Below are positions 2,797-10,305 of a stretch of 64,000 bases of DNA, piece by piece. The stretch lies in NCBI GenBank assembly GCA_026014485.1, contig JAOZIE010000002.1, positions 336,874-400,873 on the forward strand, written 5' to 3'. This stretch comes from Candidatus Bathyarchaeota archaeon. GTDB lineage: Archaea; Thermoproteota; Bathyarchaeia; Bathyarchaeales; Bathycorpusculaceae. Positions within the stretch are counted from its first letter, which is position 1, and each line of letters begins with the position of its first letter. The notes under the pieces were generated by a model, which saw only the letters and a program-made list of their open reading frames with translations, was not told where the DNA came from and did not search any database. The position numbers were made by a program, and so were the translations under genes.

Positions 2797-3903
2797 ATGA
2801 AAAAGAAAAGATGCGTCATTTTGCTTTTCGCTATAACCTCAGCGATGTTGCTTCTGCAAGCACAGCCAGTGTTCTCTATCGAAGGTACATCTGCTCCGGA
2901 TGAAGCATTGGTTTTCGGGAGGGACATTGTTCAACTTGATTTGAAAAAATACAATGCAACAATGGTTGCAAACTCCGTGCGTTATCCAACCCATTTAGCT
3001 GGATTAGCTGAAGAAGATGTTGTGTACCTACTCGAAACTGACGGCAGTAAATTAGAGTGGGCCTGCGCATTCATAAATGGCAGTTTGGCTCATTGTGGTC
3101 TATTTATTAACGAAGGATCGCCGTTTTTCATGGACGCCCAACAAAACGGAATTACCAGCAAATCAAAAGACATATTGCAGAAATATGAAACGTACACAAC
3201 TTCACAAAACATTGGACAGCCACACGAGTTGGATACCATGAAAGAAACGCTTGATATGTTTGAGGCAACCAAAAGCAACGAAATAACCATAGGAAACGTC
3301 GTACTCAAAGTAGCTACTGAGAAGAATTTCACCAGCTTTCAATGGAATAACATTATAGACGGAGTTCCCTTTCCAAGCATAACACTCGAATTCAGAGACG
3401 GAATCTTTTGCGGGTTAGGAGACATTTGGAAATATTACACAATAGGAAATACAAACATTAATATAACAAAAGAAGCAGCCATTCAGATAGCTCTGGAACA
3501 TCTCAAGAATTTTACATGGGAAGTTGGAGATGCTGAGGTAACAGAATTCAATGTAATAGAAGAACCACTTACTGCAGAGTTGTTTACGACAAAATGTAAA
3601 GAACCCTTGACGCTAAGCCCCTATTGGCGAATTGAACTACCTCTCGACAAGACCTACCCCGGTCAAGTTACATTCATTTCGCTCGCAATTTGGGCTGATA
3701 CGGGAATCATTGAATCATGTATTCCAGTGGGCGGTGGAGGAGTTCCATATGAAGACAACAACGAAAGTGCATTGCCAACTCAAACGCAAGCAGACACAAC
3801 ACCATCACAGGTAAACATTGACGGGCTGATAATTGTGGTGATAAGTGCAGCAGTTGTTATAAGCATTTCAGTGTTGACTATTAAGAAAAAACATAAACCA
3901 TAA
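2797..3903 (+). CDS. Membrane-anchored extracellular protein with PepSY-like region (copy 1)
   Basis: 368 residues with a signal peptide (about 1-28), a large extracellular region and a C-terminal helix (about 343-362) ending in KKKHKP, so it is anchored with the bulk outside. The segment around 222-242 (NITKEAAIQIALEHLKNF) looks like a PepSY helix, and the stretch to about 308 has the following strands. Several N-glycosylation sequons are present. It is a paralogue of the 10737-11918 protein: EPLTLSPYW aligns with NPLTLYPLW and LAIWADTGII with VGVWGDTKEI. PepSY domains often act as protease propeptides or inhibitors, so it may control the upstream protease-like protein. That role is inference. 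GGAGTG precedes the ATG. Confidence 0.6.
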   Translation: MKKKRCVILLFAITSAMLLLQAQPVFSIEGTSAPDEALVFGRDIVQLDLKKYNATMVANSVRYPTHLAGLAEEDVVYLLETDGSKLEWACAFINGSLAHCGLFINEGSPFFMDAQQNGITSKSKDILQKYETYTTSQNIGQPHELDTMKETLDMFEATKSNEITIGNVVLKVATEKNFTSFQWNNIIDGVPFPSITLEFRDGIFCGLGDIWKYYTIGNTNINITKEAAIQIALEHLKNFTWEVGDAEVTEFNVIEEPLTAELFTTKCKEPLTLSPYWRIELPLDKTYPGQVTFISLAIWADTGIIESCIPVGGGGVPYEDNNESALPTQTQADTTPSQVNIDGLIIVVISAAVVISISVLTIKKKHKP

Positions 3904-5693: not shown

Positions 5694-6012
5694 GGGCTTG
5701 GCGTGTTGGTTGTAACCCGCCTTTTGTTTTTGTTTGTGGCATTCGGCTAATCGGGCTACCCGCGCCTTCCGGTAGAGTCTTCATTGGCGCCTGTTTGCCC
5801 TTTCCACTTGCAGGACAGCCGTTTCACCGTTTCCGCCTTGGCGCACTCTGCGTCTTAAACGCGTCATAGACAAGTCCAAGGGGACGTTTCGTTTCTGCTC
5901 TGTTGCCAAGCCTCTCGGCTTCCCCCGAGGGGGTGCAATTCTACTCGTGGGCGGAGTTTCCTCAGTCCCTTCACATTCGGGGACCGATAGCCACACACCA
6001 ACTCGCCAGCCC
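5694..6012 (-). ncRNA. rnpB: RNase P RNA, archaeal
   Basis: About 319 nt forming the catalytic RNA of RNase P, which removes tRNA 5' leaders. The ends are set by P1: GGGCUGGCGAGUUGG at the 5' end pairs with CCAACACGCCAAGCCC at the 3' end, with one bulge and one A-A mismatch. The CR-I motif GACUGAGGAAACUCCGCC is present. Its AACUCCGCC pairs with GGCGGGUU near the 3' end to make P4, leaving one bulged U, the universally conserved feature of this RNA. The CR-IV-like GGAAAGGGCAAACAGGCGC lies between them. A TATA box sits about 27 nt upstream of the 5' end. Protein-like frames over this stretch are shadows. Confidence 0.94.
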
Positions 6013-8682: not shown

Positions 8683-9777
8683 TTACCTTGTGACCTTGGC
8701 TTGCCGCACAGTTTCTAAGCAGTCTTTTGCTTCACTGTTGTTGGCAAAGTAACGCCGTACAGGCTCAAGTATCCTGCCCAACTCTTCTGCAACGCCGCTC
8801 TTCAAATCCATCGGATGAAGCTTACCCTCAGCGTAAGCAGCCGCCAACTCATCAAAGCTGCCGAATTGGATTGCACCGCCAAACTTTGCGGGACGCTCAA
8901 TGTTTAGGGCGGGTTTTTCGCGGAAGATTATGTATTTGCATATGTCAAGGATGGGGTTGTACTGAACTGTCTTTTCGGGGCAGAAGGCCTTGGACATCTT
9001 CTTTTTGATTTCCTCAGGCGAATCATAGATAAAGATGCAGGTGTCAGGCTTGCTTTTGCTCATTTTCGCGCTGGCAACCGCCTCTTTCTCTTGCCCCTCA
9101 GGAATAGGCCAAACCTTAGGCTTCTCCAACCCCTGCAGCAAGTGATGATGCACGCAGATGGGTTTCCAGTAGCCAATTTTCTCCCCGATTTCCCGCGCAA
9201 CCACGTTAGCTTTACGCTGATCCATACCCAGCTGACAAACCTTCACGTTTAGGTGAAATATATCGGCAACCTGCATGGGCGTGTATAGAAAGTCGCTGAC
9301 GTAGTGGGCTTCGCCTTCTTTGCGTCCTGCAATCTCCAGCGTCCGGGTGGTTCGGGCTATGGTGAGGCTTTTGGCTATAGCCATGGTTTTTGCCCAGTAA
9401 GACAAGTCATCATACAACTCATCAGAGTAAATGAACTCCACCTTATCCTTATCCGCAGGCACCCCCAACGCCAACCAACTGTGACGGAACAGGTCCGCAG
9501 CCTTTCGGATGAGCGCCAAATCTCCGCCGAGCTTATTGTTCAAATATGCGTGCCAAGTTGCAAGAAACGCCTTAAAATGGAGACCCGCTTCAGCAAAATC
9601 CTTCATCTTGTAAGCGCAAATTACGCCCGTGCCCAGATGCGCAAGCCCGGAAGGTTCCCAGCCATTGTAGGCTACAGGATGCTCTTCAGTCTCCAAAAGT
9701 TGCCGAAGGTCATCGGGGGTGAGGACTTCTTCTGTGGGGGGTCTGCAGATTAATTCGATACGTTTCTCAATGTCCAA
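8683..9777 (-). CDS. tyrS: Tyrosyl-tRNA synthetase, archaeal type
   Basis: 364 residues. Class Ic synthetase that charges tRNA-Tyr. The HIGH-equivalent GLAHLGTG (about 44-51) follows the substrate strand YNGWEPSG. The KMSKS loop is exact (KMSKS, 238-242). QLGMDQRKANV carries the conserved Gln/Asp of the tyrosine pocket and is typical of archaeal/eukaryotic TyrRS. Length matches archaeal TyrRS, which lacks the bacterial S4-like tail. A TATA-like TTTTTAAG lies at about 9818-9827 on the minus strand. It leads a two-gene operon with the Toprim protein. Confidence 0.95.
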   Translation of the reverse strand: MDIEKRIELICRPPTEEVLTPDDLRQLLETEEHPVAYNGWEPSGLAHLGTGVICAYKMKDFAEAGLHFKAFLATWHAYLNNKLGGDLALIRKAADLFRHSWLALGVPADKDKVEFIYSDELYDDLSYWAKTMAIAKSLTIARTTRTLEIAGRKEGEAHYVSDFLYTPMQVADIFHLNVKVCQLGMDQRKANVVAREIGEKIGYWKPICVHHHLLQGLEKPKVWPIPEGQEKEAVASAKMSKSKPDTCIFIYDSPEEIKKKMSKAFCPEKTVQYNPILDICKYIIFREKPALNIERPAKFGGAIQFGSFDELAAAYAEGKLHPMDLKSGVAEELGRILEPVRRYFANNSEAKDCLETVRQAKVTR

Positions 9778-9879
9778 GGTAAATCAGCCTGTATTGCTAA
9801 GCTAATGGCAGTGTGGAACTTAAAAATTTGCATACTAATTCCCAAAGGATAAGACAAAACAAAAGCCTCCGAAATGATG

Positions 9880-9985
9880 TGTCACGGGCTAAATTGTGTC
9901 CCACGTAACCTAACACTCAGCTTCACAGCGGAGCGGTACGCTCCTCTAGGCTGAGCTCTCTCTGGCGTGGGATGTTACGCCCGTG
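9880..9985 (-). ncRNA. Long nested hairpin, candidate structured RNA (possibly H/ACA-like)
   Basis: Four perfect helices nest in one hairpin: CACGGGC/GCCCGTG (9883-9889 with 9979-9985), CCCACG/CGTGGG (9900-9905 with 9966-9971), CTCAGC/GCTGAG (9916-9921 with 9950-9955) and GGAGCG/CGCTCC (9930-9935 with 9939-9944). On the minus strand the outer stem is followed at once by ACA (9882-9880), and the first internal loop is 7 by 10 nt. That is the layout of an archaeal H/ACA guide RNA with a pseudouridylation pocket. A convincing kink-turn was not found. A TATA-like CTATACTT lies near 10021-10028. Strand and class are tentative; the helices themselves are seen directly. Confidence 0.5.
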
Positions 9986-10228
9986 CCCACCGTGTCCCAT
10001 GATTGGGTAAAACCCAGACTTCACAAGTATAGCAAGATTTGTTGTGCTTGCTTCTTCCGTTGGGTCCGTCGTCATGGATATAGCCAGCGGGATACTAAAC
10101 TAGAACAAGCACCGCAATTAAGCGTTGCTATCCACTCTACTGATAAACCTAAGTCAGACAACTGTTTGACCCCTAACACAAACACATAGCAAAAACACGC
10201 GCCGCCAAAAACAAAATTAAAACGTAAG
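9986..10228. other. Intergenic region between structured hairpin and tRNA-His
   Basis: No gene is supported. A further small hairpin TGGGT-AAA-ACCCA lies at about 10004-10016. Reading frames here show no protein-like composition. Confidence 0.35.
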
Positions 10229-10305
10229 TGGGGCCGGGGCTGGGATTTGAACCCAGGCAAAAGGCTCCACAGGCCTCTAGGCTACCAAGCTACCTCACCC
10301 CGGCC
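10229..10305 (-). tRNA. tRNA-His (GUG), with encoded G-1 and CCA
   Basis: A complete cloverleaf: acceptor GCCGGGG/CCCCGGC, D-arm AGGU/GCCU, anticodon stem GAGGC/GCCUU with loop CUGUGGA (anticodon GUG), and T-arm CUGGG-UUCAAAU-CCCAG. The extra G-1 (position 10305) faces discriminator C73, the His identity element. The 3' CCA is encoded (10231-10229). An integrase relic lies 80 bp upstream, which suggests that this tRNA served as an attachment site. Confidence 0.96.

Follow-up and report, generated by a model that had tools for sequence, protein, structure and literature searches.

A Probable Guide RNA for Two Ribosomal Centers in the Archaea

Among known RNAs, those closest to the one considered here are the archaeal box H/ACA RNA Pf7/Pab40 (HgcG) and the hairpins HP1 and HP2 of Haloferax. 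The rules given for archaeal H/ACA RNAs are an upper stem that counts 10 layers as far as the G-A pairs, a lower stem of 7-9 bp, and a distance of 14-15 nt to the ANA box (PMC4652768). Stem III of HgcG guides position L2016 in P. abyssi, the counterpart of E. coli 1915 (PMC4652768; PMC2584109). The pseudouridines of Haloarcula at 1956, 1958, and 2621 are equivalent to E. coli 1915, 1917, and 2586; of these, 1956 and 1958 were assigned to Haloferax HP2, a homolog of Pf7 stem III, and 2621 to HP1, an apparent homolog of Pf7 stem II (PMC2584109). Alternative pairings were proposed for HP2 as well, and one crenarchaeote is reported to be without homologs of Pf7-I and Pf7-II (PMC2584109).

Within the window, which denotes the whole stretch of 64,000 nucleotides of bathyarchaeal DNA that was analyzed, a gene of approximately 215 nt was recognized between the genes for tyrS and tRNA-His. 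It is best read, from its sequence and those of its relatives, as encoding an H/ACA guide RNA of two units that is unannotated and present throughout the class; among the Pf7/HgcG and Haloferax guides, this RNA would rank as a variant that is divergent and helix-clamped. As such, it would probably be what guides pseudouridylation at two centers of the ribosome in the Bathyarchaeia, a large class of mainly uncultured organisms. A literature search, thin on subscription journals, found no published description of the RNA in this class.

Extent and Anatomy of the RNA

The locus was initially annotated as a hairpin of four nested helices spanning 103 nt between tyrS and tRNA-His. These helices are indeed present at 9883-9985, where they are formed by P6 (CACGGGC/GCCCGTG), P7 (TCCCACG/CGTGGGA), P8 (GCTCAGC/GCTGAGT, including one G-U pair), and P9 (about GGAGCG/CGCTCC). 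The hairpin is real, but it constitutes only the 3' half of the conserved feature. When 60 genomes, the window's own and those of relatives, were searched with 9800-10020, 52 had a match at E ≤ 1, and the 46 matches with E below 2e-8 (own genome counted) were taken as members. Across these 46, conservation extends on the minus strand from about 10093 to 9880, twice the span first noted. The whole gene is accordingly placed at 9880-10093 (-), its presumed ends being those of the block conserved in relatives; the covariance model built for it, R1, covers 202 positions. The original idea holds, namely that the minus strand encodes a stand-alone RNA of the H/ACA type, with the amendment that there are two units and a gene about twice as long.

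The RNA is predicted to consist of two tandem H/ACA units, each comprising a lower stem, a pocket, an upper stem, a kink-turn motif, and an ACA box, and each enclosed by an extra helix, P1 around unit 1 and P6 around unit 2 (all coordinates that follow are on the minus strand). The succession of lower stem, internal loop, upper stem, and apical loop that defines archaeal box H/ACA stems is found in both. In unit 1, the 5' strand of P1 (CCCGCTG, 10085-10091) pairs with CGGTGGG at 9986-9992, directly after the ACA box. The lower stem P3, supported by covariation, joins 10073-10078 to CATGGG at 9996-10001, and is followed by the putative 5' guide GACGG (10066-10070), present in 45 of the 46 members. 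The upper stem P4 is formed by ACCC (10062-10065) and GGGT (10012-10015), and is topped by the variable apical hairpin P5 (10032-10051; GCAAG/CTTGC). A kink-turn motif, RUGA opposite GA, lies at 10021-10026, with UGA conserved in all 39 rows of alignment A2, and would be the binding site for L7Ae. The candidate 3' guide, with its ACCCA core, occupies 10002-10012, and ACCCA followed by 8 nt and ACA recurs in 43/46. The ACA box itself (9993-9995) is found after the lower stem at a constant distance from UACC in 46/46, and in 43/43 in a separate count.

Unit 2 is arranged likewise. Covariation supports its outer helix P6 (9979-9985 with 9883-9889), its lower stem P7 (9966-9972 with CGTGGGA at 9899-9905), the upper stem P8 (5' strand at 9950-9956), and the apical hairpin P9 (9928-9946). 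The putative guide strands are GAGAGAG (9956-9962; 43/46 members) and GTTAGG (9909-9914). The RUGA motif at 9921-9926 retains UGA in 39/39 rows; as in unit 1, a kink-turn is present at the level of the motif, and the second G-A pair of unit 2 is inconstant. The ACA box, at 9895-9897 after the lower stem, is found in 44/46, the exceptions being L078, which runs into a contig end, and L080, which has ATA at that position.

Two details of the initial annotation have to be revised in light of this arrangement. The ACA that had been noted directly after the outer stem exists in the window, but just 24/46 members have an ACA 6 nt or less from this stem, and so it is not the conserved box; it was rejected in favor of the internal ACAs at 9993-9995 and 9895-9897. 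Likewise, the internal loop that had been likened to a pseudouridylation pocket was rejected on geometry; the functional pocket of the 3' unit would be the loop between P7 and P8, not that between P6 and P7.

Counted by eye, the layers of unit 1 number 10 provided that the pocket is closed by a pair between A10065 and U; those of unit 2 number 10 with its closing G-U pair included. The distance from the closing pair to ACA, for which a membership range of 14-16 nt was taken, is a constant 15-16 nt in unit 1. In unit 2 of the Bathyarchaeia, it is 16-17 nt, mostly 17 (by eye), while the crenarchaeal-type loci L132, L193, and L211 and the Methanomethylicota locus L121 have 14 nt together with a 5-nt 3' guide (also by eye); unit 2 of these four is predicted to adopt the canonical fold.

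Covariation

The initial annotation had called for covariation across related genomes, and this was found. The members were aligned with MAFFT without the use of structure. Alignment A1 held 44 of the 46, with L072 omitted as near-identical to L071 and L078 on account of its contig end; A2 and A3, of 39 rows each, also excluded L021, L061, L073, L074, and L079, and A3 was made because three rows of A2 were misaligned at the 3' end. Among the 39 aligned sequences, 92.3% of the cells of the six helices P3, P4, P6, P7, P8, and P9 were paired, a value that leans toward the proposed structure because the latter was read from the same sequences; with control partners slid by 1-3 columns, 31-49% of cells were paired. 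Changes on both sides were observed in 25 of the 39 pairs, including 5/7 in P3, 3/4 in P4, 6/8 in P6, and 4/7 in P8 (helices 1, 2, 3, and 5 of the test, respectively; P7 and P9 were helices 4 and 6), and 0/500 shuffles matched the real alignment on any of five measures. P1 lies outside the covariation alignment and was judged by a separate search for partners: a perfect 7-bp upstream partner for the strand following the first ACA occurs in 35/46 members, compared to a mean of 6.9 and a maximum of 14 upon shuffling. At least one divergent member, L075, retains P1 with altered letters (TCTTGCC/GGTAAGA).

Predicted Targets in 23S rRNA

No archaeal 23S could be located in the genome to which the window belongs, and targets were therefore read from the LSU and SSU of three relatives (G005, G012, and G047). 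In the relatives, helix 69 reads GUAAC-UCUGA-CUCUCU(C/U)AAGG and the peptidyl-transferase (PTC) loop UGGGU-UUAGA-CCGUC. The GACGG and ACCCA strands of unit 1 complement CCGUC and UGGGU of the PTC loop, in the region of U2586, and the GAGAGAG and GUUA strands of unit 2 complement CUCUCU(C/U) and UAAC of helix 69, at U1915/U1917. In all three genomes, the pairing amounts to 10/10 bp for unit 1 and 11/11 bp for unit 2 (GUUA plus GAGAGAG), with the strands in the right order. The match of pocket strands to rRNA that had been suggested as a check is thereby obtained for both units, but with 5 nt of target between the duplexes rather than the 2 of the canonical UN. One possible reading of the gap in unit 2 has UN, a single pair (U1917), and a GA bulge of two bases; for unit 1, the corresponding reading has UN with a GA bulge and a single U-U mismatch.

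Both sites ranked best in the SSU and LSU of all three genomes with a spacing of 2-6 nt, a rule that was fixed after the sites had been spotted on inspection of helix 69 and of the PTC loop; in a scan with strict UN spacing, they were not the best for either unit. Of 400 composition-matched decoys tried on G012, 11 performed as well as unit 1 and two as well as unit 2, or 28 when the 3' guide of unit 2 was taken as GUUAG rather than GUUA. Some members of the order have GAUAG in place of GUUAG, at the cost of one pair with A1913. Of 19 LSU loci from across the phylum, all have the PTC site, GUC being preceded by AGACC or AGTCC, and 15 have that of helix 69; two of the four misses are partial loci.

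Other candidate sites, at SSU 500, 770, and 1020 and at LSU 1617-1642, were dropped for incomplete pairing and because literature support for them was not seen; LSU 1617-1642 had scored well in its own decoy test (a fraction of 0.005 of 200 decoys as good). A 16S-23S stretch does occur in the window's assembly (L084; G000:C15:1-3104). It has a helix 69 of bacterial type (GGCCGUAACUAUAACGGUCC) and a stretch of N inside, its similarity to the archaeal 23S of the same genus is short and weak, and the contig is probably a contaminant. L090-L092 are 16S flanks, not LSU.

Proposed Function

Most likely, the locus encodes a stand-alone, minus-strand, two-unit box H/ACA RNA that guides the formation of pseudouridines in 23S rRNA and is a divergent relative of HgcG/Pf7. 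Counting against this are the 5-nt target gap in both units and the long distance to ACA in unit 2 of the Bathyarchaeia. Following its presumed transcription, each unit would bind L7Ae at its kink-turn and Cbf5, Nop10, and Gar1 at its pocket and ACA, with P1 and P6 closing over each unit at or near the ACA. Unit 1 would then direct pseudouridylation of U2586 (E. coli numbering) in the PTC loop, and unit 2 that of U1915, perhaps also of U1917, in helix 69. The prediction of pseudouridines at U2586 and U1915/U1917 is one that can be mapped, and the placement of an ACA box directly against a second helix, together with the 5-nt gap, offers a test of the limits of H/ACA geometry.

These same two features, the 5-nt gap and an ACA with a helix on either side, deviate from the geometry of productive guides (PMC4652768), and both targets are functional centers. 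They would suit an RNA of H/ACA fold that serves as an assembly chaperone or checkpoint on the two 23S centers, with modification being secondary or absent, for which snR30 provides a parallel. Such a role in place of guiding is nevertheless improbable, since the corresponding sites are pseudouridylated in Haloarcula and have been assigned to homologous hairpins of Haloferax (PMC2584109), and the ACA and kink-turn motifs are strongly conserved. snR30/U17 likewise belongs to the H/ACA RNAs and uses a pocket to pair with rRNA, but it functions in the cleavage of pre-rRNA and pairs at another site of the pocket, and kink-turns are reported to be absent from eukaryotic H/ACA RNAs (PMC7991803). In a broader form, in which one RNA grips the PTC loop and helix 69 at once and acts as a 50S chaperone or checkpoint either beside or instead of guiding, the idea is raised by the helix-clamped design and the 5-nt gap; we regard it as unlikely, though deserving of some weight. 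If true, the RNA might be an ancient trait of the phylum of archaea that contains the Bathyarchaeia.

Relationship to Known RNAs

Viewed as a guide, the RNA would be related to stems II and III of Pf7/Pab40 (HgcG), with which it shares tandem H/ACA units bearing kink-turns, and to the HP1/HP2 hairpins. It differs from HgcG in having two units instead of three, no equivalent of stem I having been seen among the units found; in its 5' guide, which is GAGAGAG as opposed to GGGUUAG in the HgcG consensus; and in the presence of the outer helices P1 and P6. Searches of Rfam 15 at the gathering level returned no match for the window RNA or for 20 loci sampled in its phylum and class, and the window RNA did not match HgcG (RF00064) up to an E of 10. 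At a relaxed threshold, HgcG (Pab40) aligns to the crenarchaeal locus L211 (28.9 bits, E 2.3e-6), mainly over unit 2, to which the last HgcG hairpin corresponds in the alignment, and to L193 (21 bits), both scores being below the Rfam gathering cut-off of 77 bits. L193 and L211 carry unit 2 by itself, without unit 1, which is consistent with the missing Pf7-I and Pf7-II of the crenarchaeote noted above. Based on these crenarchaeal intermediates and the shared target, we infer that the window RNA is homologous to HgcG.

With the Haloferax hairpins, the RNA has in common both the number of units and the proposed targets, 1915/1917 and 2586 (PMC2584109), and thus, by target, unit 2 corresponds to HP2 and unit 1 to HP1. 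HP1 and HP2 are parted by a long spacer in halobacteria (PMC2584109), whereas the units here are adjacent and helix-clamped. The Pf7/HgcG and Haloferax guides would thereby be linked to homologs in the Methanomethylicota, the Desulfurococcales, and one Njordarchaeota bin. A sub-threshold match to Pyrobac-1 (RF01722) was obtained at 9911-9968 (-), with 22.4 bits against a cut-off of 40. The likeness resides in an apical stem with a kink-turn-like GAGAG..CUGUGA arrangement; the alignment is limited to this apical part, and Pyrobac-1 is without a tested target. Pyrobac-1 could itself belong to an H/ACA RNA.

Gene Organization and Independence from tyrS

The RNA gene is flanked by tRNA-His at 10229-10304 (-) and by tyrS at 8683-9777 (-), the latter under the name given in the initial annotation and with homologs found in our search. 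A cis-acting leader of tyrS, or a regulatory RNA linked to it, might be suspected from the 26/46 members in which the two lie no more than 700 nt apart, as taken from match coordinates. In 9/46, however, tyrS is on the same contig yet at least 3.2 kb away, and in 8/46 it is on a different contig, some of which may be explained by contig breaks; in the other 3/46, the search for tyrS gave no match. These distances indicate that the RNA is an independent gene. It also has a TATA-like box of its own, CTTAATT at 10116-10122 (-), approximately 25 nt upstream of the presumed 5' end and a candidate promoter element; a TTTAA-type box aligns with this position in most relatives. A further box of the TTTTAAG type occurs past the 3' end of the RNA in many members with an adjacent tyrS, and is probably the tyrS promoter. 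In agreement with the initial annotation, the RNA gene is separate from tyrS and is not its leader, and a regulatory tie to tyrS is very improbable.

Folding of 9860-10005 gave -53.5 kcal/mol on the minus strand (z -2.64; 2/200 shuffles equally low) and a z of -3.86 on the plus strand (1/200). Such a good hairpin on both strands might denote a palindrome, a mobile element, or a chance structure devoid of RNA function, but this is practically dismissed by its single full-length copy in the genome and by class-wide orthologs with compensatory changes, the reverse of the isolated, non-covarying palindrome envisaged at the outset. The open reading frames listed at the hairpin are short and overlapping, and none accounts for it as a protein gene, in agreement with the earlier view.

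An archaeal RNase P RNA (RF00373, 194.5 bits) lies at 5701-6006 (-), about 4 kb from the H/ACA-like RNA gene, such that two functional RNAs and tRNA-His are clustered in the window. The RNA described here is not RNase P RNA, SRP RNA, or 5S rRNA; these identities were rejected because the first maps to 5701-6006 and the others elsewhere in the genome.

Distribution Among the Archaea

Within the class, model R1 gave a match in 216 of 256 genomes, usually as one copy, and in 115 of the 120 that are of high quality (at least 90% complete, at most 5% contaminated). Its presence is weaker elsewhere in the phylum, of which a sample gave a match in 107/398 genomes, 36 of them outside the class; the weakest, in G286, is probably false. 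A pattern scan for unit 2 yielded 102 stretches, of which the 80 listed provide the names that follow: the matches listed are mostly from Bathyarchaeota, with others from Hecatellales and Methanomethyliaceae/Methanomethylicota, one each from Desulfurococcales and Pyrodictiaceae, and one from a Njordarchaeota bin. Four pattern matches (L173, L175, L177, and L184) are bacterial, look like chance, and were rejected.

Outside the window's order, an outer helix of 8-15 bp at gap 0 after ACA was found in 10/24 loci (L120-L123, L132, L150, L193, L206, L211, and L216), the criterion being that no more than 3/100 shuffles were as good. L125 and L127 have a 13-bp outer helix at gaps of 1 and 4, respectively, and the remaining 12/24 fell below the shuffle level; hence, the clamp is common, not universal.

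A few genomes (G124, G118, G164, and G178) have two R1 matches. Those of G124, at C2:1176-1379 and 2852-3034, are 1.5 kb apart on one contig, and may represent either a duplication or a pair of guides for separate targets. Loci L116-L119, from genomes that we take to be Nitrosopumilaceae-like, retain unit 1 (GACGG, ACCCA, and ACA), and their second hairpin has other pocket strands (e.g., GAGUCAG) that lack the same fit to helix 69. In the Methanomethylicota-type loci L120, L121, L205, L206, and L216, unit 2 is preceded by a unit whose lower stem is GCGGGU/ACCCGC and whose 5' strand differs; the 3' strand of this upstream unit, UAACCCA, could form gapless pairing with UGGGUU in the PTC loop.
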